From IMG/VR virus record IMGVR_UViG_3300043803_001324, positions 1 through 41,814 of that record: a stretch of DNA of 41,814 nt; one strand, given 5' to 3'. Below the pieces are notes generated by a model. It did no database searches and had not been told where the DNA came from. It was given only the letters and a program-made list of their open reading frames with translations. Source of the DNA: a virus. Positions within the stretch are counted from its first letter, which is position 1. Each line of letters opens with the position of its first letter. Positions 11,476 to 41,814 of this stretch are shown here, one piece after another. The translations under genes and the position numbers were made by a program.

Positions 11476-11670
11476 GTGACCAAGCGCGCTGCCCCTCGAC
11501 CTGATACGACGCTCGGGGCTCTGCCCGAGGACCGGTCGGTGAAACACGAAGCGGGCCGCCTCTGGTGCGGTCACGTCGAAGCCGCTCGCCGAAAGGACTG
11601 GGAGGGCACGGAAGTCTGCGTTCTCTGCTCCCACCTTGTCGAAGAGGCCCAACAGCATGTACGAGCCTGA
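11476..11670 (+). CDS. Small CxxC/His protein
   Basis: A 64-residue product from a GTG at 11476, with WCGH near residue 30 and CVLCSH near residue 48, a likely single zinc site. It overlaps the polymerase start by 14 nt, typical of coupling in this genome. Composition is plausible for a real gene, but the start and the coding status are less certain than for its neighbours. Confidence 0.45.
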   Translation: MTKRAAPRPDTTLGALPEDRSVKHEAGRLWCGHVEAARRKDWEGTEVCVLCSHLVEEAQQHVRA

Positions 11671-14600
11671 GCGCTGCGGAGCGCAGTGCTGGAGATGCCC
11701 CCTCCACGACATGCGGGATGGGGTTCCCGTCCCTCCTGAGTCCAATCCGCACGCCACCATCGCCATCATCGGGGAAGCTCCCGGCGAGCACGAGGTTCGT
11801 GAGGGCCGCCCCTTCGTCGGGCCCTCCGGCACCGAGATCACGCAGGCGCTCCACAACGTGGGCATCCTGCGCGGCCAGCTCCACATCGACAACGTCCTGC
11901 TCTGTCGACCCCCGAACAACAAGCTCTCGGCGGTGCTGGCGAAGATCCAGAAGCGGAACCGGGACATCAAGGAGGAGAACCGGCACCGACTCGCCTGCGG
12001 CGACGCTCCGCTCCCGATGGTCCCGACCCCGCAAGAGTGCTGCACGCCGCGGCTCTTCTCGTCGATCCAGTCCTACCGCCACATCATCGTGGCAGGCTCC
12101 GTCGCTTCTCGCGCTCTGATCGGCCCAACGTCCATCATGGACCTCCGCGGAGGCATGATCACGGCGTACTGGCACGAGGGCCGACTCCGCCTGTTGGAGC
12201 CTGGCTCCGAGCCTCCGCCGGGCTTCCCCGAGGTGAAGATCCTGCCGACGCTCCACCCGTCCTTCGTGATGCGGGCTCGACGGTGGACGCCCGTGTTCCG
12301 TGCGGACCTCGCGCGAGCGGCCAGGTGGTTCAACGGGGCCATCGAGTGGGAAGAGCCGGTCATCCACTACAACCCTCCGATCGAGTTCGTCGAGGCGTTC
12401 CTGTCGCGTCCGGAGCAGGTCTGGACCTACGACACCGAGACTGACGGCATCGAGCCCCTGACGGCGAACCTGCGCACGGTCCAAGTCGGCACCAAGAACG
12501 AGGTGTTGATCGTTGCGTACCTCGGGGTAGATGGATCGACCCACTTCTACACGCCGGAGCAGGAGCAGCGGCTGAGTCGGGCGTTCAACGGGTTCTTCGC
12601 GAACCCCAAGACCGTCAAGTTCGGCTGGAACAACATCGCGTACGACTCGCACCTGATCCGTCGCTTCTTCGGCGTCCGCGACATCCCGGGGCACCTCGAC
12701 GGCATCCTCCTGCACCGACTCAAGGAGTCGGAGCTGCCGCACAACCTCGGCTTCGTCGCAACCTACTACACCGACGCGCCGCAGTGGAAGGTCGATCGTG
12801 CGGGCAAGAAGCGCGCATATGGCTCGGAAACCGACGAGGAGCTGTGGCTCTACGGCGGCCGCGACGTCGCGCTGACCGCGCGCGTGCTCGACCCTCTGTG
12901 GGCGGCCGTGCAGGTTCGGGGGCAGGCCCATCTGGTCAAGCCCGACCACCAGATGGCGCAGGTCTGCGCCGGCATGAAGGAGAACGGCATGCCCGTGGAC
13001 CAGAAGCGCCGGCTCTGGTGGGAACGCATGCTGACCATCGGCGGCACGGAGAAGAAGAAGGACGGCAAGGAGAAGAAGTACATCGGCATGTTCACGTACC
13101 TCGCGAACCTGCGTGAGCTGTCCGGCCTGCCGAACCTGAACCCGGGAAGCGTCACCCAGCTTCGGGATCTGCTCTTCGAGCGCTGGAAGCTGGAGTCACC
13201 GCTGGACATCGAGGAGCGGACGACCGAGACGGGAGACCCGTCCACGTCGGACACGGTCCTGCGCAGCTTCCTGACGATCCCCAAGCTCGACCCGCACCAC
13301 AAGGACTTCATCCTCCAGCTTCGGCGCTACCGCGCTGTCCAGAAGAAGCTCGGGACCTACGTCGTGAAGCTCCGCTACCAGGAGCAGCTCGCGGAAGAGG
13401 GATTCGACGACGAAGAGGAGCAGGCCGACCGTGAGTCGCGCCTCGCTCGGGGCGACAAGAAGTTCGGGATCGTCTCGTCCGTGACCGGCCGGATGTACCC
13501 CGGCTGGAACGCGCACGTCGCCGTGACGGGCCGCCTGTCCAGCTCCAAGCCGATCAACGCGATGAACTTCCCGTCCAGCCTCAAGGACATCGTCGCGGCG
13601 CCAGCCGGCCGCCTGTTCGTCGGTGCGGACGCCAACCAGATCGACCTTCGAGTTGCCGCGGCTCGCTGGGGCTGCGAGCTGTACCTCGACGCCTTCCGCC
13701 GAGGAGCCGACCCTCACGCCATGACGGCGTACATGGTCTTCGGCGAGCGCTTCAAGCGGGCGCAGGGCTTCGCCAAGGGCCGCTGGGACGGCAACCTCTT
13801 CCTCCCCGACGCCGATGCGAAGTGGAGCGGGGAAGCCAAGGCCCTCCGTGACCTCGCCAAGCGCGTGTGCTACGCCTGCGCGCGGCAGGGGACGCGGGTG
13901 GTCACGCTCGGCCCAGAAGGCTCCAAGCCCATCGAGCAGATCGTTCCAGGGCAAGACTGGACGTGGGCGTGGAGCATCACGCGGCAGAGATATGAGCCGG
14001 CCAAGATCGTTGCGAAGATGCAGACTGGCGTGCGCCGCCTTGTTCGCATCAAGCTGCGAGACGACCGGCAGAAGGGGCGCCGGAAGTTCACTGAGATCGA
14101 CCTCACGCCGGATCATCTCTGCATGCTGCGGGATGGTACGTTCCGAGCTGCGGGGAACCTTCGCCCCGATGACCGGTTGATGCCTTTCCGTCGCTGGGCG
14201 TCGTCGGAAGGGTACCGGGTGCTCGATGCCACCAACACGAACACGCGCAATGGGGAGCACCGACAGGTCCTTGGGCTGGAGGCTAAGGTTCCTGGACACG
14301 TTCACCACCGAGATCGGCTTCGGTGCAACAACGCGCCTGAGAACCTGGAGTACGTCGCGTCGATGTCGGAGCACTCGAAGCTGCACTGGCAGGAGGATCG
14401 AGAGTCGAAGCTGACGGCTCTTCGACTCAACCTTCCAGCAGACATGCAAGCACGACTCGCTGCGGGCCGGAAGAAGAGCGCGAAGTGGCACGAAGCGATC
14501 CGAAGGGAGATGCAAGATCGGTGGAACGGCCCCCGGCGAGAAGAGGCGATTCGTAAGATCAAAGTCGGTAAGGCTGCCAACCCCCAGCAGTATACGAGCA

Positions 14601-15676
14601 AGCTCGATGCTTTCTCCGACAAGATCGGTGTTCTTCCCGACCGTGAGGTGGCAGAGCTGGCAGGCTGCACGCCCGAGAACGTAGGCATGTACCGCAGGAA
14701 GAACGGGATCCCTCCCCGAGGGAAACGTGTGGGGTATACGGATCACGTTCACGCCTTGCGGGAGAAGCTGGGTGTCCTGTCCGATACGGAAGTTGCGGAG
14801 ATCGTTGGATGCGACCGCGCGGTAGTTGCCCGGGTTCGCGGAGAGCTGGGAATCCCAAGCGCGCCGCGGAGCCCTCGTCAGCCGAGCAAGCTCGATGCTT
14901 TCTCCGACAAGATCGGTGTTCTTCCCGACCGTGAGGTGGCAGAGCTGGCAGGCTGCACGCCAGAGAACGTGTCGTACTACCGGAAGTCTCGTGGTATCCC
15001 TGCGTACTGGCGAGGGAACTCGGAGGCAGTCAACCACGTTGTCGTCTCGGTCGAGGACGTCGGCGAAGACAAAGTGTGGGACATCGAGGTAGATCACGAG
15101 GATCACAACTTCGCGACCGACTCGGGCGTGTTCGTCCACAACTCGCTCTACATGGGGACCGCGGAGACCGTCCACAAGGTGCTCACCGAGACCGAGGTCG
15201 AGCTGGACGACGGCACGACCGACCTGCCGTACATCAACCTGAGCCTCCGCGAAGTTCGATCCATGCACACCAACTGGGTGCAGAACGCGGTGGGATTCGA
15301 GGCGGGATGGGAGCGCGAGGTCGCGACGTGGCGCGAGAACGGCTTCCTCCTCGAACCGGTCATGGGCCGCCGCCGCGACTTCCTCGACGGGGAGAACCCC
15401 AACGAGATCGTCAACTTCCCCATTCAGGGCGGGGCCGCGGGCCTGATGAACATGGCCATGCTGGACCTGATTGAGCAGGTCCCGTTCTTCAAGTGGGGCC
15501 CCGGTACGGGGGTTATCAACCAGTGCCACGACGCCATCGTACTGGAGGTCCCAGAGAGCGAGGCTGAATCTGTCGCGGCAGTATTGACAAAGTGCATGGG
15601 CCGGATACATCCGGGTCTGCCGGGCGTCGAGTTCTTTGGCGAAGCTGCAATCGGGAGGACGTGGAAGGATGTCTGA
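11657..15676 (+). CDS. Family A DNA polymerase with N-terminal uracil-glycosylase-like and 3'-5' exonuclease domains, containing an intein
   Basis: A 1339-residue precursor, 917 after intein removal. Residues ~5-230 resemble family 4 uracil-DNA glycosylase (GEAPGEHEVREGRPFVGPSG at 39-58, with cysteines CGAQCWRC and LLCRPP for an Fe-S cluster), the fusion type known from SPO1-like phage polymerases. The 3'-5' exonuclease begins at DTETD (259) and includes FGWNNIAYDSHLI and YGGRDVALT. The polymerase shows motif A GADANQIDLRV (Asp 658), motif B (O helix, K735...Y739, continuing after the intein) and motif C CHDAIVLEV (Asp 1292). This is the replicative polymerase candidate. Start: ATG 11657 after GAGG; a TTG at 11636 is an alternative. 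Confidence 0.92.
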   Translation: MYEPERCGAQCWRCPLHDMRDGVPVPPESNPHATIAIIGEAPGEHEVREGRPFVGPSGTEITQALHNVGILRGQLHIDNVLLCRPPNNKLSAVLAKIQKRNRDIKEENRHRLACGDAPLPMVPTPQECCTPRLFSSIQSYRHIIVAGSVASRALIGPTSIMDLRGGMITAYWHEGRLRLLEPGSEPPPGFPEVKILPTLHPSFVMRARRWTPVFRADLARAARWFNGAIEWEEPVIHYNPPIEFVEAFLSRPEQVWTYDTETDGIEPLTANLRTVQVGTKNEVLIVAYLGVDGSTHFYTPEQEQRLSRAFNGFFANPKTVKFGWNNIAYDSHLIRRFFGVRDIPGHLDGILLHRLKESELPHNLGFVATYYTDAPQWKVDRAGKKRAYGSETDEELWLYGGRDVALTARVLDPLWAAVQVRGQAHLVKPDHQMAQVCAGMKENGMPVDQKRRLWWERMLTIGGTEKKKDGKEKKYIGMFTYLANLRELSGLPNLNPGSVTQLRDLLFERWKLESPLDIEERTTETGDPSTSDTVLRSFLTIPKLDPHHKDFILQLRRYRAVQKKLGTYVVKLRYQEQLAEEGFDDEEEQADRESRLARGDKKFGIVSSVTGRMYPGWNAHVAVTGRLSSSKPINAMNFPSSLKDIVAAPAGRLFVGADANQIDLRVAAARWGCELYLDAFRRGADPHAMTAYMVFGERFKRAQGFAKGRWDGNLFLPDADAKWSGEAKALRDLAKRVCYACARQGTRVVTLGPEGSKPIEQIVPGQDWTWAWSITRQRYEPAKIVAKMQTGVRRLVRIKLRDDRQKGRRKFTEIDLTPDHLCMLRDGTFRAAGNLRPDDRLMPFRRWASSEGYRVLDATNTNTRNGEHRQVLGLEAKVPGHVHHRDRLRCNNAPENLEYVASMSEHSKLHWQEDRESKLTALRLNLPADMQARLAAGRKKSAKWHEAIRREMQDRWNGPRREEAIRKIKVGKAANPQQYTSKLDAFSDKIGVLPDREVAELAGCTPENVGMYRRKNGIPPRGKRVGYTDHVHALREKLGVLSDTEVAEIVGCDRAVVARVRGELGIPSAPRSPRQPSKLDAFSDKIGVLPDREVAELAGCTPENVSYYRKSRGIPAYWRGNSEAVNHVVVSVEDVGEDKVWDIEVDHEDHNFATDSGVFVHNSLYMGTAETVHKVLTETEVELDDGTTDLPYINLSLREVRSMHTNWVQNAVGFEAGWEREVATWRENGFLLEPVMGRRRDFLDGENPNEIVNFPIQGGAAGLMNMAMLDLIEQVPFFKWGPGTGVINQCHDAIVLEVPESEAESVAAVLTKCMGRIHPGLPGVEFFGEAAIGRTWKDV
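14595..14682 (+). repeat. Direct repeat copy 1 inside the intein
   Basis: 88 bp that match 14883-14970 with one mismatch; the first 79 bp are identical. The unit encodes a helix-turn-helix-like segment beginning SKLDAFSDKIGVLPDREVAE. A third, diverged protein-level copy (LREKLGVLSDTEVAEIVGC) lies between the two. Confidence 0.95.
14883..14970 (+). repeat. Direct repeat copy 2 inside the intein
   Basis: Second copy of the 88-bp unit, 288 bp downstream of the first. Identity at third codon positions indicates a recent duplication or gene conversion rather than conserved function alone. Confidence 0.95.
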
Positions 15677-27688: not shown

Positions 27689-28164
27689 TGCTTTCCCTGA
27701 AGGTGATTTCCGGAGGTCAGACGGGGGCCGACCAAGGCGCGCTCTTTGGGGCGCGTGCGGCGGGCTGGGAGACCGGCGGGACTGCTCCGAAGGGCTGGCG
27801 GACGGACGCCGGCCGGGCGCCGTGGTTGGCAGACTACGGCCTCGTGGAGCATGCCTCGTGGCAGTACGGTCCCCGGACCCTCGCCAACGTCCAGAACAGC
27901 CGTGGGACGCTGATCTTCGGCGACGCCACCTCCCCCGGTTGCACGCTCACCCGGAAGCACGCTCGGACTTGCTTCAAGCCCGTCCAGGTCCTCCTGTGGC
28001 CCGGCGACCACGACTGGCTGGCTGAGGCCGAAGCAGTCGCCGACTGGATGGCCCGAATGGGCATCACCACGCTCAACGTCGCCGGAAACCGCGAGCGATC
28101 CAACCCGGGTATCGAAGCCGCGACGTCGGCCTTCATCCAACTTCTGGCGCAGAGGATTCCATGA
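27688..28164 (+). CDS. Circularly permuted YpsA-like SLOG protein (putative nucleotide/NAD-derivative sensor)
   Basis: A 158-residue Rossmann-like protein. Hallmarks are VISGGQTGADQGALFGAR at the N-terminus, PKGWRTDAG, RTLANVQNSRGTLIFGD and CTLTRKHA, characteristic of the family once called molybdenum cofactor carrier and now cpYpsA (SLOG superfamily). SLOG proteins bind nucleotide or NAD/ADP-ribose-type ligands. Its direct neighbours are an AAA+ ATPase and an ADP-ribosylglycohydrolase (ATGA overlap), so an ADP-ribose or NAD-linked role is likely. No catalytic residues can be assigned. Confidence 0.85.
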   Translation: MLSLKVISGGQTGADQGALFGARAAGWETGGTAPKGWRTDAGRAPWLADYGLVEHASWQYGPRTLANVQNSRGTLIFGDATSPGCTLTRKHARTCFKPVQVLLWPGDHDWLAEAEAVADWMARMGITTLNVAGNRERSNPGIEAATSAFIQLLAQRIP

Positions 28165-29102
28165 CGTTCGATCGTGCCTACGGCGTGCTTCTCGGGCAGG
28201 CCATCGGCGACGCCCTCGGTATCCCCGCGGAGCACAAGACCCGTGAGTGGTGTCAGGCGCGGTACAAGGACGGAGGTCCGTACAGCTTCGAGCGGGTCGA
28301 GCGCCCGAGCCGCAACGAGGTCTTCGAGGCTGGTGAGTGGTCGGACGACACCGACCAAGCGTTCATCCTCGTGGATTCGTGGTTGGCTCATGGGCGCGTC
28401 CATCCACAAGATGTGGCTCGACGCCTCGTAGACTGGACGGCGACGCAGAAGGGACTCGGTTCGCACACGCGCGCAGTTCTGGCCGAGCCAGACTTCCTCG
28501 CGGATCCCGCGACTGCGGCTCTGCGAGTGTGGGAGCTGGGCGACCGCCAAGCGGCGCCGAACGGCGCTGTCATGCGCTCTGCCGTCGTCGGCCTGTTCTC
28601 TCCCGACTTCGACGAAGTGTGGGGGATGGCTATGGCGTATTCGCGAATCACACATGCCGACCCCCGCTGCCAGATCAGCTCGGCGATGGTCGCAGGGTTG
28701 GTCTGCCTTCTGCGGCAGGGGGCACGCATCGACGTAGCCATCGAAATGGTCCACGAGAAGCAGGAGCGCGATCCGCTCAAGTGCGGCGAAGTCTCAGAGG
28801 AGTTCATCATCTGGGACGGCTTGGCGCAGGGCTACACGTTCAAGCCGGTACAAGCTGCCATCCGCGCGCTCCGCCTGCTGGACGAGCTTCGTCCGGGACA
28901 GGACGACATGCTTACGGTCGTTCCGCTCTTGCTGGCCCGCCAGATTCGAGAGGGCGGCGACACGGACACCAACGCGGCCGTCGCAGGGGCGGTGCTCGGC
29001 GCGTACACCGGAGCAAGCGCGTTCCTCCTCTTGCGTGGAGGGCTTCTCCGGCTCGATGCCGTGCGCGAGCGCGCCGCCCGTCTCACTGGCTCGGAGGAGT
29101 AG
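28161..29102 (+). CDS. ADP-ribosylglycohydrolase (DraG/ARH family)
   Basis: A 313-residue member of the DraG fold. Metal-binding signatures are GQAIGDALGIPAE near the N-terminus, GEWSDDTDQAF near 60, ITHADPRCQ near 164 and GGDTDTNAAVAGAVLGA near 258. These enzymes remove ADP-ribose from proteins, nucleic acids or small molecules using two Mg2+/Mn2+ ions. The acidic residues are all present, so it should be active. It overlaps the SLOG gene and abuts the phosphoesterase. Probable role: reversing host ADP-ribosylation or handling ADP-ribose products. Confidence 0.92.
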   Translation: MTFDRAYGVLLGQAIGDALGIPAEHKTREWCQARYKDGGPYSFERVERPSRNEVFEAGEWSDDTDQAFILVDSWLAHGRVHPQDVARRLVDWTATQKGLGSHTRAVLAEPDFLADPATAALRVWELGDRQAAPNGAVMRSAVVGLFSPDFDEVWGMAMAYSRITHADPRCQISSAMVAGLVCLLRQGARIDVAIEMVHEKQERDPLKCGEVSEEFIIWDGLAQGYTFKPVQAAIRALRLLDELRPGQDDMLTVVPLLLARQIREGGDTDTNAAVAGAVLGAYTGASAFLLLRGGLLRLDAVRERAARLTGSEE

Positions 29103-29651
29103 ATGGCGACGTTCTTCACTTCCGACCTGCACTTCGGGCACGAGAACGTGATCCGCTACGCCAAGCGGCCGTTCAAGAACGCCGACGAGATGGACGCAGA
29201 GATGATCCGCCGCTGGAACAGCGTAGTCGGTCCGGCCGACGAGGTTTACGTGGTCGGCGACTTCGCGCTGTGCAAGCGGGACCGTGCCTTGGAGATCGCC
29301 AAGCAGCTCAACGGCACGAAGTACCTCGTGCGGGGCAACCACGATCGAGAGCCACCGGGCGCGGCCTTCGCTTGGATCAAGGACATGCACACGGCGAAGG
29401 TGCAGCTTGGCGAGACGGTGCAGCGCATCGTCCTTTGCCACTACGCCCTCCGGGTCTGGGACCGCTCCCACTATGGTGCCTGGATGCTCTACGGGCACAG
29501 TCATGGCAATCTCAAGGACGACCCCCACGCCCTCTCACTCGACATCGGCGTGGACTGCTGGAACTACACTCCCGTCAGCGTCGGGCAGATCGCAGACCGG
29601 ATGGCCCTGAAGGACTGGAAGCCGGTCGACCACCATGGGGAAGAACGGTGA
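29103..29651 (+). CDS. Calcineurin-like metallophosphoesterase
   Basis: A 182-residue single-domain phosphoesterase with the full metal-site set: SDLHFGHENVI, VVGDFAL, VRGNHDR, LCHYAL and YGHSHGN. Small phage members of this type hydrolyse phosphodiesters or phosphomonoesters; the substrate cannot be read from sequence. It starts directly after the ADP-ribosylglycohydrolase stop and so belongs to the same cassette. It is too short and of the wrong subtype to be an SbcD/Mre11 partner for the Rad50-like protein. Confidence 0.92.
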   Translation: MATFFTSDLHFGHENVIRYAKRPFKNADEMDAEMIRRWNSVVGPADEVYVVGDFALCKRDRALEIAKQLNGTKYLVRGNHDREPPGAAFAWIKDMHTAKVQLGETVQRIVLCHYALRVWDRSHYGAWMLYGHSHGNLKDDPHALSLDIGVDCWNYTPVSVGQIADRMALKDWKPVDHHGEER

Positions 29652-35629: not shown

Positions 35630-35960
35630 TCCAGTGGAGGAGACGGGCTGGCTCAGGGGAGTACGCCCACGCCACGAGCGCGAGGTGCCGGTCGGTTGGG
35701 CTGCCGTCCGGCCTCCAGAGAGGCTCCGCGTTCTTCTCGACCTGAGCGAGGTGGCGGGCAAGGAAACCAGCCCGGCGCTGCGCCCACGTCTCACCCGGCC
35801 GAGCAGGAAACGACCCCCACGGGCGACCCCAGCGCAGATAGCCCTCCATGAAGCCGTAGAGCGTGGCCCCGCGCTTCGCTCCTCGGGCTACTGCTGCGAC
35901 GCCTCGCCGGGCCATCTCCGCCTCGCAGGCGGCCACCGTGCTCGGCCGCAGCCACTTCAT
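35556..35960 (-). CDS. Hypothetical protein
   Basis: A 134-residue basic protein, last gene of the long minus-strand operon. It contains TLYGFMEGYLRWGRPWGSFP and PTDRHLALVAWAYSPEP; no domain assigned. The last ~25 residues are Pro/Arg-rich and lie antisense to the plus-strand gene 35147-35629, so the true end is plausible but the tail may be non-functional. ATGA overlap with the HAD gene upstream. Confidence 0.55.
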   Translation of the reverse strand: MKWLRPSTVAACEAEMARRGVAAVARGAKRGATLYGFMEGYLRWGRPWGSFPARPGETWAQRRAGFLARHLAQVEKNAEPLWRPDGSPTDRHLALVAWAYSPEPARLLHWINGIRDTPPAKPRRPVRPSSTPRR

Positions 35961-36610
35961 CGAGCGGGCGTCCGGAGAAGCAGGATAGCGCGCTGGGCTG
36001 CCTTGGGGAGCCCGATGCCGTCGCTGCCCCAAGTGAACGGAGGATCGACCTTCGCGATGTGGTTAGCGCGAAGCTGGTCCCCCACCCCTTCGGGGAGGTC
36101 ATCGTTCGGCGTCGCGATGATCTTCAAGGCCCACGCGAGCTTCCGAGAAGCTCCCTGCGCGTCGTCGAGGAGCACGAACCGCCGGCCCTTCTCCAGCACC
36201 GACCAGTCGTTGAGGGCATCTCGGGTCGAGTAGAGCCGCTTGAAGTACCGGGCGAGGCCGAAAGCGTGGAGCGCGCCCTCGGCGTAGTCTCGCTTCGCTG
36301 CCGTGAAGACGCACAGCTCGCCGTACTTGGCCAGCTCGGCCAGGACGGCCTCGGCGTAGGGGTTCACGACGAAGTCGTAGGTCACGTCGCCGAACTGGAT
36401 CGTCTCAGCCTCTCGCGCCTGTTCGATCTCGCGCTGGATCGACGGAATGCGCCGAGCCAGCAGCGCCGCGATGCGATCGTTGGAGACCTCCATCTTCTGG
36501 GTCGTGTGCGCAAGCTCCCACTCAGCCTGCTGGAGCATGTTCCAGCCGTTCTGCATGCGCGAGGCCCAGAGGGTCTCGTCGAGGTCGATGAAGATGAGCG
36601 GGCGCTTCAT
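35957..36610 (-). CDS. HAD-superfamily phosphatase (NIF/FCP1-like)
   Basis: A 217-residue HAD enzyme. Motif I is FIDLDETLW at the N-terminus (nucleophile and acid/base Asp), motif II is VFTAAKRDYAE, and motif III/IV is FVLLDDAQG. The arrangement and 'DLDETLW' match NIF-type/FCP1-like phosphatases, which dephosphorylate proteins or small molecules. About 65 residues between motif I and the body form a helical cap (IAALLARRIPSIQREIEQAR). Start ATG 36610 overlaps the preceding gene. In an operon with two kinase-fold proteins, so a phosphorylation switch is possible. Confidence 0.8.
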   Translation of the reverse strand: MKRPLIFIDLDETLWASRMQNGWNMLQQAEWELAHTTQKMEVSNDRIAALLARRIPSIQREIEQAREAETIQFGDVTYDFVVNPYAEAVLAELAKYGELCVFTAAKRDYAEGALHAFGLARYFKRLYSTRDALNDWSVLEKGRRFVLLDDAQGASRKLAWALKIIATPNDDLPEGVGDQLRANHIAKVDPPFTWGSDGIGLPKAAQRAILLLRTPAR

Positions 36611-37380
36611 GGGCCGGTTCGGGGGTTGGCTCGCTTGGCCGCGGCGACGGTATGATAGCCGATGGGCTGCTCTACGTCGGGAGCGACCGCGTCGAGCTGT
36701 TCGAGGTAGCGGTTGAGCTTCTCTGCATAGCCCATCCCGAACGACTTCACCAAGGCGTTGTACGCACGGCCGACTTCGTCCCGCTGCGCGGCGAACGCCC
36801 GCGACTCGGGGGAGTCGAGCCACTCCATCCAGTTGGAGCCCGGCGGCTTGTCCCAGACCTTCGCGTACAGGACGTCGTAGGTTCGCTTCAGTGCGGCGGC
36901 GGCCGCCAAGTCCGAGGGGCTTGCCTGCGCGACGTGCAGCGCGTTCGGGAGCGCCTGGAGAGCCTTCTGGGCGGCGGCCGGCGTGCGGCCCAGCGCAGCG
37001 CCCAGAGCGGCTTCCACGGCGTCGTACTTGGCCACGCGCTTGCCTTCGTAGGGCTTGATGAACCACCCGTTCGAGCTGATGCCGCCGAAGAGGTTCCACG
37101 AGCCCGCGGGCGTGTGGCCTCCGGTCCCCGTGCTCATGTAGAACGCCCGCCGCTTGCCAGGGGAGACCTCGACTACGGCAAAGGGCCGGACGGCATCCCC
37201 TGTCGTGGTGATCGTACCTCCGCCAAGCAGGAACCCGACGACCGTCGAGCGGGGCGCAGCCGCGCCGGCCGCGCCAGCCGGGCCCGCGGCCCGCTCAGCC
37301 TTCTCGCGGGTGTAGAACCACCGGTCGCCGACCATGTAGATCGTCCTACCTCGGGCGTCCTTGCCTTCTTGTATCATCAT
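36607..37380 (-). CDS. Hypothetical protein with N-terminal 'YTREKA' module
   Basis: A 257-residue protein. The N-terminus (GRTIYMVGDRWFYTREKAER) matches the short C-terminal module of the two metalloprotease-like proteins in the same operon. A Gly/Ala linker follows, then a beta-rich segment (VVEVSPGKRRAFYMSTG, WNLFGGISSNGWFIKPYEG) and a helical C-terminal half with GYAEKLNRYLEQLDAV. No enzyme family recognised. Double ATG at 37380/37377; the first overlaps the upstream stop. Confidence 0.6.
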   Translation of the reverse strand: MMIQEGKDARGRTIYMVGDRWFYTREKAERAAGPAGAAGAAAPRSTVVGFLLGGGTITTTGDAVRPFAVVEVSPGKRRAFYMSTGTGGHTPAGSWNLFGGISSNGWFIKPYEGKRVAKYDAVEAALGAALGRTPAAAQKALQALPNALHVAQASPSDLAAAAALKRTYDVLYAKVWDKPPGSNWMEWLDSPESRAFAAQRDEVGRAYNALVKSFGMGYAEKLNRYLEQLDAVAPDVEQPIGYHTVAAAKRANPRTGP

Positions 37381-37952
37381 GACTCGTACTCCGGGTTGCA
37401 CTCACCCGCGAACCGCTCCCACGAGTCCTCGCCCTTGTCCAGCTCGACCTGTAGGTTGTAGAGGTAGGTTCCAGCCATGTCGAAGTCCTGCCGACCGAGC
37501 GCGATAGCAGCTCCTCGGGCCCACGCCTGCGCCTTGTTGTAGACACGGAGCTTGGAATGCGCCATGGCGTAGGCCCGCCCGAGGGCGTAGAGCTTGTCCT
37601 CGGCTTCTGCAACAGTCTTGGGATACTTTGGATCGTCTCCCTGTTCCGCCACGTAAGCCACGTTGCTGCGGATCTGGCGGTCCATGTTGACAGCGGCTCG
37701 CTGAAGCACTCGGAGGGTCTTGTCGACCTTGTTTCCGACGTTGTGGTAGTTACCCTTGAACCAAGAGAACTTCTCTGACATGCGGTGAGTCAGGTCTCCA
37801 ACATGCTCACAGAGCCAGCCGTACTCTTGGGCGATCTGCGAGTGTTGGAGCTTCAGCATCGCCTCTTCTGGCTTGTACCGCTGAGCGGCGGCCAGCTCTT
37901 CGAAGAGCCTGTCTCGCTCCTTGGTCGAGCAGTGAGAGTTCTTGCGGATCAC
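37377..37952 (-). CDS. Hypothetical helical protein
   Basis: A 191-residue, almost entirely helical protein (RDRLFEELAAAQRYKPEEAM, VAEAEDKLYALGRAYAMAHS). GTG 37952 overlaps the upstream stop and is preferred over an in-frame upstream extension. It could be a coiled-coil structural or scaffold-like protein, but nothing identifies it. Confidence 0.6.
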   Translation of the reverse strand: MIRKNSHCSTKERDRLFEELAAAQRYKPEEAMLKLQHSQIAQEYGWLCEHVGDLTHRMSEKFSWFKGNYHNVGNKVDKTLRVLQRAAVNMDRQIRSNVAYVAEQGDDPKYPKTVAEAEDKLYALGRAYAMAHSKLRVYNKAQAWARGAAIALGRQDFDMAGTYLYNLQVELDKGEDSWERFAGECNPEYES

Positions 37953-38251
37953 CGCCCAACCTCCTTGAACGTCCGCGCTCCGAGGTGAACAGGTCGAAAG
38001 GATACCTGAAGGATGTCGAGGCACCCCTCCACCTCTGGAACCTCGTCCTCCACGTAGTCTGCGGCGTCTACCGCGTCCTGATACTCTATGAACAGCTCAG
38101 GCTCGTTCGAGAAGCCAAGTCCAGCGATCCAACGAGAGTAGAGGTGACCGTTCCAGAGCCCGATGACGTAGAACGTGTCGGTCTTTCGAGCGTACCCCCG
38201 GCGCTCTGGGTACTCAGCGCGAGGTGGCTGGATGGGGTTCCGTCGGCTCAT
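37949..38251 (-). CDS. Hypothetical protein
   Basis: A 100-residue protein beginning MSRRNPIQPPRAEYPERRGY. It has a beta-like core (TDTFYVIGLWNGHLYSRWI), an acidic helix (YQDAVDAADYVEDEVPEVEG) and ends with a strand. Resembles small phage proteins that fold as an antiparallel sheet; no function known. ATGA coupling upstream. Confidence 0.6.
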   Translation of the reverse strand: MSRRNPIQPPRAEYPERRGYARKTDTFYVIGLWNGHLYSRWIAGLGFSNEPELFIEYQDAVDAADYVEDEVPEVEGCLDILQVSFRPVHLGARTFKEVGR

Positions 38252-38460
38252 GGGCTTCGTTCCTGGTACGATCGGAGGAGGAGTTCGACGTCGTTGTAGT
38301 CGTTCTTGATCGAGTCGATGGTGCGGTAGACCTCCTCGTCTTGGTCGATTCCGTGCGCGGCGCACAGATCGAACAGGCGGGAGAGGTCCGCATACAGTGG
38401 GACGAGTTGGTTGCGCAGGTCGGCGATCAGCCGATCGTGCTTTCCCGTGCATGGATTCAT
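38248..38460 (-). CDS. Short helical hypothetical protein
   Basis: A 70-residue protein made of two predicted helices (RLIADLRNQLVPLYADLSRL, VYRTIDSIKNDYNDVELLL). ATGA overlaps on both sides within the minus-strand operon. No family recognised. Confidence 0.6.
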   Translation of the reverse strand: MNPCTGKHDRLIADLRNQLVPLYADLSRLFDLCAAHGIDQDEEVYRTIDSIKNDYNDVELLLRSYQERSP

Positions 38461-39455
38461 GCGATGCCTGCGAGCTTCATGGCCTTCTCCTTGGAGTAGG
38501 CGTACTTGGTGGTCTTCTTGCCGTCGCGGTAGACGAAGAACGCTGGGCGGCCGTATGGATCGTTCTCACGGCGAATCTCGACTGCCTTCTGCTGAGCCCC
38601 GAGCTTCTTCTTCTGGACCGCGGCTGCGAGCGCGGAACGCAGCTCATCGCCGCGGGGTCGACGCTGCGGGTAGAGCTGGCGGTGCGCAGCTTCCTTCGCT
38701 GCTGCCGCCTCGTCGGCTGCCTTCAGGAACTCTGCGGCAGCGATCTTCAGGCCATGCCTGTACTTCTCGGGGGCATGGGCCTTCCAGTGCAGGAAGGTCA
38801 GGCTACGTTCGACCAGCTCCATCGCACCGCTAACCGAGCCCGTTCGGCGCCGGATGCGGTCAGCCAGCGGCTCAAGCTCATCGCCGAGTCGCGTGTGGAA
38901 CTCGATGTCCCGCACAGCGTGGGCGTGGGGGACGGAATACTCAGTGCCACCCGGCACCTGCGACAGTTCGTCCTTTCCTCGCACCTTCCGCGGAGGCATC
39001 CCGCGCGCTCGCTTCGACGACTCCCACCGAAGCGTTGCACCGTCAAGGGTCAACCGTGACCCACGCCCACCGAGTGCGAACTGGACGAGGTGCCGAAGCT
39101 CGTGGCGAACGGTCTCTCGGAGGCTGGCGGAGATCGTCCGATCCTCGTAGAACCGGACCTTGTGAGGGTCGATCGCAACGGTGCCCGGAGCCTCGAACCA
39201 GGCTGCTGCCCCTTCGGGGAGATACTTGACAACTACCCTCAGAGCGCTCACGATCGGCTTGAGCCCGTACGGAAGCTCTACGCCAGGATGGAAGATCACG
39301 AACCCCTCTCCGACAGGACCCGTTGACTCTGGGTAGCCCCCGCGGGCGCGAAGGCTGTCGTACTCGACCCACGCTTCGATTGCGGCCTTGCACGTCGCCT
39401 CGACCAGCGGTTCAGGGAGCTTGATGAGCCCGTTCTTCTTCGTGCGCCGGATCAT
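38457..39455 (-). CDS. HExxH metalloprotease-like protein, copy B
   Basis: A 332-residue zincin-like protein. HELRH at residues 118-122 supplies two zinc His and the catalytic Glu; RDIEFHTRLGDE ~65 residues later is conserved with the neighbour and could give the third ligand. ARGMPPRKVRGK precedes it. The protein ends with DPYGRPAFFVYRDGK and KYAYSKEKAMKLAGIA. It is a diverged tandem paralog of the gene at 39452-40462. Substrate unknown; options are virion maturation, host protein cleavage or a structural role. Confidence 0.75.
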   Translation of the reverse strand: MIRRTKKNGLIKLPEPLVEATCKAAIEAWVEYDSLRARGGYPESTGPVGEGFVIFHPGVELPYGLKPIVSALRVVVKYLPEGAAAWFEAPGTVAIDPHKVRFYEDRTISASLRETVRHELRHLVQFALGGRGSRLTLDGATLRWESSKRARGMPPRKVRGKDELSQVPGGTEYSVPHAHAVRDIEFHTRLGDELEPLADRIRRRTGSVSGAMELVERSLTFLHWKAHAPEKYRHGLKIAAAEFLKAADEAAAAKEAAHRQLYPQRRPRGDELRSALAAAVQKKKLGAQQKAVEIRRENDPYGRPAFFVYRDGKKTTKYAYSKEKAMKLAGIA

Positions 39456-40462
39456 CCCTTCCCCCGGTTGAGCTTCTCCACGAGAGCCTGCGCCTTCTCC
39501 TTGGTGTAGGCGTACTTGTCGGTTCGGAGGCCGTCCTTGGTGTAGACCCGGTAGATCGGGCGGTTGTGGGCATCGAAGTCCGCGCGGGACTGACCGAGCG
39601 CTTGGTTGCCGGCCGCCTTCTGCTTGATCTTCGACTGGAGCTGCTCTCGCAGCGGCGTGAGGGGGCGCCCGAGCCAATCCTTCTTGACGGGGGCATTCTT
39701 GGCTGCAATGGCGTGGAACTCAGCCGCAGCGCTCTTCATTCCTGCACGGAACTTCTCGGGAGCATGCTCGCGCCAGACACGGAAGGAAGGCGTGTTCGAC
39801 AGCTTCCGGAGAGCGTCCTCGGGCGTGTAATCGCCGCTCGCGACCGAGTCAGCGTACAGCTCGACCTCGTCGCCGAGGCGCGTCTGGAACTCGATGTCTC
39901 GGACAGCATGCTCCCAGGGCACGCTTTGCGCCACTCCCCCAAACACCTGCGACTCGGCACTCTTGCCCCGGGCCTTCCGCGGCGGCATGCCCCGAGTTTC
40001 CTTGGGCTTGCCCCACCGCCCGAACTGCACCAGATACTTCCGGTCTCGATCTGGGACGGTCTTGAAGAACCGATCCTTCTGCCCCAGCGCGAACTGGATG
40101 AAGTGTCGAAGCTCGTGGCGGAGCACGTAGAGCAGCGTTGGCATGCTGTGCGGGTGGAAACGAGTACCAGGGTCGATTTCGATCAGACCGGGAGCCACGA
40201 ACCAGCCGCCCGCACCTCCCAGGGGCCGAACGGTGATGTGCAACAAGCCAATCCCCAACAGCCCATAGGGCATGTCCTGATCGGTGAGGAGCGCCGATGC
40301 CTCGCCTCGCGGGTCCGCGTTCCGCAGGGCCCGCTCTTCCTGGTACCCCCGGAGAGCTTCGACCAAGAGCTTCACCGCCTTCTTGGACAAGGCATCGGGA
40401 ATCTTGATGATCCCGTTCTTGCGGCAGCGCGAGCAGGTGATCTTGGGGCGGCGCTTCAGCAT
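39452..40462 (-). CDS. HExxH metalloprotease-like protein, copy A
   Basis: A 336-residue paralog of the downstream gene. HELRH is at 116-120, with shared blocks TRGMPPRKARGK, HAVRDIEFQTRLGDE and the C-terminal RPIYRVYTKDGLRTDKYAYT then KEKA. It additionally has an N-terminal CSRCRKNG zinc pair that copy B has lost. ATGA overlap with copy B and a 7-nt overlap with the kinase-like gene upstream. Same functional uncertainty. Confidence 0.75.
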   Translation of the reverse strand: MLKRRPKITCSRCRKNGIIKIPDALSKKAVKLLVEALRGYQEERALRNADPRGEASALLTDQDMPYGLLGIGLLHITVRPLGGAGGWFVAPGLIEIDPGTRFHPHSMPTLLYVLRHELRHFIQFALGQKDRFFKTVPDRDRKYLVQFGRWGKPKETRGMPPRKARGKSAESQVFGGVAQSVPWEHAVRDIEFQTRLGDEVELYADSVASGDYTPEDALRKLSNTPSFRVWREHAPEKFRAGMKSAAAEFHAIAAKNAPVKKDWLGRPLTPLREQLQSKIKQKAAGNQALGQSRADFDAHNRPIYRVYTKDGLRTDKYAYTKEKAQALVEKLNRGKG

Positions 40463-41058
40463 CCCTTCCCCGCTCGGATTCGTTGGATCGAAGCCATGCT
40501 GAACACGACATCGAGCAGGATCATGGTGCCGTTCTTGTCTACGCCGAGATTGCGCGGAGCAAACTCGAAGGTGTAGTCGCTGCCGTAGTCTGAAGCGTAG
40601 TCCCGCAAGGTCTCCAGAGCCTCGAACACCCCGGGCGAAACGACGCCCTCAGCGCATTCGAGCACCTTCTCCATCGCAACGTAGCCGAACTGCCGGTCGG
40701 CCCAATGGAGGCCACGCCAGCAGCGCTCCAGCGTGCGGTAGTCCGCCCACGCGACCTTGTTGGCCGCTCGGAGGGGGACTTGGTACCGCGGCATGACGAA
40801 AGCCTCACTGTCCGGCAAGCTGCCCAGCCGGCGCACGTAGGGGATGTGCGGATTCCCGCGCTCGTCCTCCCAGATGCGGGCGAGCAGCTCCTTGCTGAAG
40901 TCCTGCTTGCAGTCCGGGACGATAGCGACTACTCGATCGGGCTTGCCGACGACTTCGTAGACCGTGGCGAACGCGCCCTTTCCGATCTGTCGCAGAGGCG
41001 CCGTGTCGCCGGAGTCCAGATCGGTCAGCACGCCGCGATGGAGAGTCATGTTGCCCAT
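40456..41058 (-). CDS. Protein-kinase-fold protein, possibly inactive
   Basis: A 200-residue protein with a glycine loop QIGKGAFATVYEV (24-36) and a C-lobe element FAPRNLGVDKNGTMILLDVVF like the catalytic and metal loops. The usual VAxK lysine reads VVAIV, the catalytic Asp position appears to be Glu, and DFG appears as DVV. It may therefore be a pseudokinase or a divergent small phage kinase. Shares a base with the second kinase-like gene upstream. Confidence 0.6.
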   Translation of the reverse strand: MGNMTLHRGVLTDLDSGDTAPLRQIGKGAFATVYEVVGKPDRVVAIVPDCKQDFSKELLARIWEDERGNPHIPYVRRLGSLPDSEAFVMPRYQVPLRAANKVAWADYRTLERCWRGLHWADRQFGYVAMEKVLECAEGVVSPGVFEALETLRDYASDYGSDYTFEFAPRNLGVDKNGTMILLDVVFSMASIQRIRAGKGC

Positions 41059-41543
41059 CAGCGAGACGCCTCCTGCGCGTAGTCCAGCATGGCGACGCGC
41101 CCATCATAGATACCCCAGTTCTGCGGCATCCAAGCGTCATCGACGAACCACATGACCTCCTGCGCCGCCGCCAGCTTCCGCACCCAGCCGCGAGGGGCGC
41201 CCCCCGCATAGAAGGGCTTTGCTCGACGCATGATGAGTAGGCGCCCGTCGGCGTAGGTCCCCACGACCGGCACGAGCAGATCTCGCAGCTTCCACCAGTC
41301 ACGGTAGTTCTGCTCTTCGAGCAGGTTCGCACTTCCCTCCGGATCGAGGTCGATCTTGCCTACATGAGCTGCGTCCACGCTCACTACGATCCGCTGACCC
41401 CCTGCGCCAATGATGGGGAAGCCTACGTCCGCGAAGATGGTCTGCATCGTGTGTGGCTGGTATCGCCCAAGCGACTTCCCTGCGAACGTGCTGACCAACT
41501 CTTCGAGAGCGTACACCTTGGCCATGTCGAGGTGCGCGCGCAT
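41058..41543 (-). CDS. Kinase-fold-like protein (aminoglycoside phosphotransferase-type)
   Basis: A 161-residue protein. FPIIGAGGQRIVVSVDAAHV and GKIDLDPEG resemble an N-lobe with glycine loop and lysine, LLEEQNYRDWW gives the helix-C Glu, and PQNWGIYDGRVAMLDYA resembles the Asn/Asp metal-binding segment seen in small phage kinase-like proteins. Start ATG 41543 (another in-frame ATG at 41525). One-base overlap with the helicase stop upstream and with the next gene downstream. Activity uncertain. Confidence 0.55.
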   Translation of the reverse strand: MRAHLDMAKVYALEELVSTFAGKSLGRYQPHTMQTIFADVGFPIIGAGGQRIVVSVDAAHVGKIDLDPEGSANLLEEQNYRDWWKLRDLLVPVVGTYADGRLLIMRRAKPFYAGGAPRGWVRKLAAAQEVMWFVDDAWMPQNWGIYDGRVAMLDYAQEASR

Positions 41544-41814
41544 CAGATGACCCAGATGCGAACGTCTTCGACGGCGCGGGTGACTGCGGTGTAGGCCCAC
41601 TCGCGGGCGAACTGACGGTCGTCCTCGTCCGTGCTGGTCCACTTCCGCTGCATGCTGTACTCCCAGACTACCCCGACCTTCTTCCACTGGCTGCCCTGGC
41701 TCTTGTGGCAGGTCAGGCACTCGCCGTACTCGGCCCACAGGGCCACGTCCGGCCGGATGGCGCCGTACTGGTCGAACAGCTCCTCATCGGACAGCTCCTG
41801 CATCTCCAGTGGCT
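41543..41814 (-). CDS. C-terminal part of a RecD/Dda-like SF1 helicase (truncated by window)
   Basis: The last ~90 residues of a protein whose N-terminus lies beyond the window; the frame is open to position 41814. CLTCHKSQGSQWKKVGVV and REWAYTAVTRAVEDVRIWV correspond to motifs V and VI of the UvrD_C_2 region in RecD2/Dda-type 5'-3' helicases. It is the most upstream gene seen of the minus-strand operon. Confidence 0.8.
   Translation of the reverse strand, partial: PLEMQELSDEELFDQYGAIRPDVALWAEYGECLTCHKSQGSQWKKVGVVWEYSMQRKWTSTDEDDRQFAREWAYTAVTRAVEDVRIWVI

Follow-up and report, generated by a model that had tools for sequence, protein, structure and literature searches.

Two adjacent genes of the virus analysed here, A and B, are full-length tandem paralogs of one phage gene, and most of the signal that gave the appearance of a short tag hopping between proteins of one operon comes from this tandem duplication. 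The duplicated gene was probably one for a zinc-metallopeptidase-like protein, with the tail shared by A and B being a domain that both copies inherited and that would act as a non-catalytic adapter. Two points of interest are left. A and B form an orphan family of phage HExxH proteins that is not found in Pfam, PHROGs or NCBIfam, has almost no known relatives and has been duplicated within a single operon, and their small accessory domain is possibly reused in a neighbouring protein, C.

The window and the operon

The window, that is the whole stretch of DNA analysed, is 41,814 bases long, makes up an entire virus record of IMG/VR and has a GC content of 65.6%. The genome from which it comes is probably larger, as a second IMG/VR record of 31.9 kb (3300044608_001563) is 100% identical to positions 1-20407 and runs past the left end of the window, adding ~11.5 kb of the same virus leftward. 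The genes for A, B and C had been placed in one operon and they do lie in one transcription unit, consecutive genes being joined by start/stop overlaps that are mostly of four bases (ATGA or GTGA). In the order of transcription the gene at 41058-41738 is followed by that at 40456-41058, A, B, three small genes, C and a phosphatase gene.

35957..41738, minus strand: operon of nine genes with short start/stop overlaps, including A, B and C
41058-41738, minus strand: first gene of the operon, phage protein of no known function (phrog_4301, E 4.9e-10)
40456-41058, minus strand: phage protein of no known function, directly upstream of A (phrog_11084, E 2.6e-13)
39452..40462, minus strand: A, a protein of 336 aa that resembles HExxH metallopeptidases and has a C-terminal tail (open reading frame, full-length homology to B)
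38457..39455, minus strand: B, a protein of 332 aa paralogous to A and encoded in tandem with it, the stop of A and the start of B sharing ATGA
36607..37380, minus strand: protein C, 257 aa, of no recognised family in family searches
35957-36610, minus strand: NIF/HAD-like phosphatase (PF03031, E 8.2e-8), whose gene closes the operon

Homologs of phrog_11084, the family of the gene directly upstream of A, are present in 65 phage records; relatives of the gene were not found in IMG/VR. In Enterobacter phage vB_Ecl_MII_002 the homolog is found shortly before the RNA polymerase gene, in phiPsa374 it is found amid small genes of no known function near the terminal repeat, and both are typical early or accessory regions of phage genomes. 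From these non-structural locations in other phages we infer that the operon acts early and outside of the virion, which in turn would argue mildly against the idea that the shared segment docks to the virion. The product of the upstream gene also contains a glycine-rich stretch, IGKGAFATVYEV, that recalls the N-lobe of protein kinases, but the product has no match in Pfam.

Duplication of A and B

A and B align by BLASTP over 335 columns with 41% identity (E 1e-58), they are thus homologous over their full length, adjacent and overlapping by ATGA, as tandem gene duplicates are. At the DNA level there are repeats in register, ~1 kb apart, across both genes (D1, D2, D3 and D6), and these include GGGGAAGGGATG, the ribosome-binding and start region common to A and B (window 39444-39464 and 40451-40471); repeats in register that take in the translation start are as expected for duplication of a whole gene. 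The resemblance of RAGKGC at the end of the gene before A to NRGKG at the end of A has the same origin, since both overlap the duplicated start region. As the two proteins are homologous over their full length, the tail they share counts as one inherited event, and it is not established that the segment moves from one terminus to the other, for A and B have it by gene duplication and the match in C is statistically insecure.

Conservation between the paralogs is uneven. It peaks at 73% in a 30-column block around HAVRDIEF.TRLGDE, whereas some stretches of the linker have only 20-36%. The tail is 53% identical and the remainder of the protein 43%. An identity in the tail that is above that of the adjoining linker fits with selection acting on the tail.

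The HExxH core and its relatives

Both proteins contain RHELRH..QFALG and HAVRDIEF.TRLGDE, and on this ground they look like HExxH metallopeptidases that may be expected to bind zinc and to cleave proteins. HELRH, an HExxH motif of the zincin type, is found in both paralogs and in one remote relative (L009, described below), and is followed in all three by an invariant glutamate in RD(I/V)EF, as in HExxH metallopeptidases, although A and B fit no Pfam, NCBIfam, PHROG or solved-structure family significantly. The invariant glutamate may be the third zinc ligand, the confidence of the model of A being too low for its position in the fold to be read.

40103..40117, minus strand: HELRH (HExxH) motif of A, residues 116-120, from the comparison of A and B
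39090..39104, minus strand: HELRH (HExxH) motif of B, residues 118-122, from the same comparison
39890..39892, minus strand: possible third zinc ligand, Glu191 of A within HAVRDIEF.TRLGDE (the residue is the same in all of A, B and L009)

The family has very few relatives. No significant match to A or B was obtained in Pfam, PHROGs, NCBIfam, PDB, INPHARED (searched with A by tblastn) or plasmids (searched with B), profile searches of solved structures gave nothing significant, neither A alone nor the A/B alignment found relatives in IMG/VR and the alignment found none in bacterial genome contigs. The titles and abstracts of the literature on phage HExxH proteins contain nothing on the A/B family. 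A DNA pattern for RHELRH..Q(F/Y) had four matches in IMG/VR, of which one is a true relative (L009 1585-2796), the version of the pattern with AGR codons having none. The A/B profile aligns with the L009 protein by hhalign over 68 columns with 41% identity (94.5% probability, E 7.9e-8), the aligned region covering HELRHFIQF and, downstream of it, H..RD(I/V)EF.T.L.D. Two further candidates were set aside. Among ~595 bacterial genomes from two phyla the core profile matched part of one 64-aa frame (E 0.007), which was taken as chance, and the putative metallopeptidase family DUF6782 (PF20573) resembles A and L009 only in ~20 residues around HELRH, scoring 12 bits with A and 11.1 with L009 where the cut-off is 27.

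The L009 protein has a longer N-terminus than A and B and it ends without the tail, nor does a profile of the tail match anywhere in its record. The tail would therefore belong to the A/B branch and not to the catalytic core, being most likely an accessory part specific to that branch, which supports the earlier suggestion that the segment is an independent unit. With one remote relative to compare, gain of the tail in the A/B branch could equally be its loss in L009.

The tail domain of A and B

39455-39574, minus strand: tail module of A, residues 297-336, DAHNRPIYRVYTKDGLRTDKYAYTKEKAQALVEKLNRGKG, predicted strand-strand-helix (sequence, AlphaFold)
38460-38561, minus strand: tail module of B, residues 299-332, DPYGRPAFFVYRDGKKTTKYAYSKEKAMKLAGIA (sequence, profile)

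An AlphaFold model of A made from a two-row alignment is poor overall (mean pLDDT 48.6), its best part being the last 35 residues (pLDDT ~71), for which strands at 302-307 and 313-317 and a helix at 321-334 are predicted. The beta-beta-alpha shape that had been guessed from the letters is thus supported by the prediction. The tail is basic, with 10 K/R to 5 D/E in A and 8 K/R to 3 D/E in B.

The A and B tails match no Pfam family at E 10, and there was no significant match to the module in Pfam, PHROGs, NCBIfam, solved structures or IMG/VR; K(Y/F)AY(S/T)KEKA, written as a degenerate pattern at the DNA level, had 0 matches in IMG/VR. Foldseek searches with the models of A and C gave nothing at E 0.001. 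A three-row profile of the module run over 150 genomes of one bacterial phylum produced matches at or below the chance rate, those that were read lying in unrelated proteins which we take to be topoisomerase I, adenylosuccinate synthetase and a CsbD-like protein.

The arm-binding domains of integrases, which are AP2-like, are small basic strand-helix units at the end of a protein, in which a three-stranded sheet and a helix bind DNA. The tails of A and B are likewise small and basic, made of strands and a helix and placed terminally. The predictions give two clear strands and a helix for the tail of A, and three short strands and a helix for the start of C. By profile the tails do not belong to this family, there being no Pfam match, the distant Foldseek match to the Tn916 integrase (1b69; E 7.0, 25 columns) is not significant and a literature search on arm-type domains found nothing.

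Taken together, the ancestral phage gene would have encoded an HExxH core and a helical linker, then a small C-terminal strand-strand-helix domain. The KYAY(T/S)KEKA segment would be part of this domain as it stood before the duplication, and tandem duplication of the gene into A and B would have passed it to both copies. The tail may act as a basic, folded adapter without catalytic function, keeping the peptidase core at its target, for which nucleic acid or a protein bound to nucleic acid is the most natural guess, and the two paralogs could provide two specificities or two dosages. We infer the adapter role only from the charge and the architecture of the tail.

The N-terminus of C and alternative explanations

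37285..37380, minus strand: N-terminus of C, residues 1-32, weakly similar to the A/B tails (BLASTP, profile, AlphaFold); C begins with MMIQEGKDARGRTIYMVGDRWFYTREKAERAAG, at about 37282-37380

The preliminary description had the module in three proteins, and whilst it is real in A and B the case for C is weak. An explanation in which a mobile beta-beta-alpha tag, docking to a common partner, is carried C-terminally by A and B and N-terminally by C, all encoded in one operon, has in its favour that C ranks third after A and B among the 736 stop-to-stop frames of the window scored with the A/B-tail profile, and so is the best match that is not a paralog. Its 6.6 bits were reached by 8 of 20,000 shuffled versions of C (~0.02 expected when scaled to the coding residues of the window, estimated at ~13,000) and by none of 570 non-overlapping bacterial open reading frames (183,312 residues, one of them reaching 5.8), from which the expected number per window is below ~0.2 at 95%. 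The order of predicted elements is also similar to that in the tail of A, three strands (3-7, 13-17, 20-22) preceding a helix (25-32) in a single-sequence AlphaFold model of C; pLDDT is ~68-81 over residues 1-30 of this model, which is poor overall (mean 49.6). Against this, BLASTP gives E 0.015 for the N-terminus of C with the tail of A and no match to the module in B, the profile gives a domain E of 0.33 and a sequence E of 0.1 in the window, the 31.9-kb sister record holds no further copy and C lacks seven residues of the hairpin, so that the unit would be ~25-30 residues there and not the ~35 first given. C is itself without relatives in IMG/VR and, by tblastn, in INPHARED. A mobile tag of this kind is thus rather doubtful.

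It is quite possible that the resemblance of C is convergent, with a hairpin and then a helix that has an S/T-x-E-x-A cap being a common local arrangement and only A and B being related. The weak pairwise scores of C would be expected from this, and parts of the signature do occur in unrelated proteins, such as YGWTKEKAEE in a CsbD-like sequence, a GRRVYRV hairpin in a PepSY-like one and DKYAYTKQKA in SHIP1, which also counts against a mobile tag. Furthermore, residues 16-31 of C partially match the unrelated sunset domain (NF051437), to which the A and B tails have no match; at 14.1 bits, with a cut-off of 27, C was not assigned to this domain. Convergence has more difficulty in that the match in C covers the whole module including its D..(G/N)R start, and in that natural proteins rarely score as high. 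The N-terminus of C is then either a diverged relative of the tail domain or a case of convergence on a hairpin and an S/T-capped helix; its likeness to the tails, better than that of a random pick and short of proof, is suggestive, and that C shares the domain with A and B is possible with the balance somewhat against it. It is less likely again that a phage-specific addressing domain of ~30 residues, common to A, B and, at the opposite end, the unrelated C, brings all three to one target in the infected cell. It is highly improbable that A and B recognise the segment as a peptide, either inhibitory or like a substrate, with which they inhibit themselves through their own tails and which in C is a substrate; this would account for one motif occurring in two peptidase-like proteins and at the opposite end of an operon neighbour, but the module is predicted to be folded and not an extended peptide, and the match in C is itself insecure.

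The tails of A and B could also have been kept alike by gene conversion at the DNA level and not by selection on the protein, as 15 of their 18 identical residues share a codon where 57% is expected (P ~0.02) and a 32-nt repeat is 91% identical (D3). However, a similar repeat of 38 nt at 87% (D2) lies at the HELRH site, codon bias alone gives the 57%, and the tails differ at 16 of 34 residues. The sharing of codons points only weakly to DNA exchange or to codon bias, with gene conversion as the explanation being very unlikely. The inherited domain remains the preferred reading for A and B.

Other genes of the window

A frame of 1346 residues at 11636-15676 (plus strand) has a domain of the uracil-DNA-glycosylase superfamily (residues 33-216) fused to a family A DNA polymerase. 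An insert that resembles an intein, extending from about CARQGTRVV to VFVHN, interrupts it and contains both an HNH motif and HTH-like repeats, and two nearly identical 88-nt copies are found within the frame at 14595-14682 and 14883-14970. At 28161-29102 (plus strand) there is an ADP-ribosylglycohydrolase gene (phrog_6572, E 3.1e-28) that adjoins a phosphoesterase gene at 29103-29651, a pairing which suggests ADP-ribose metabolism in this phage.
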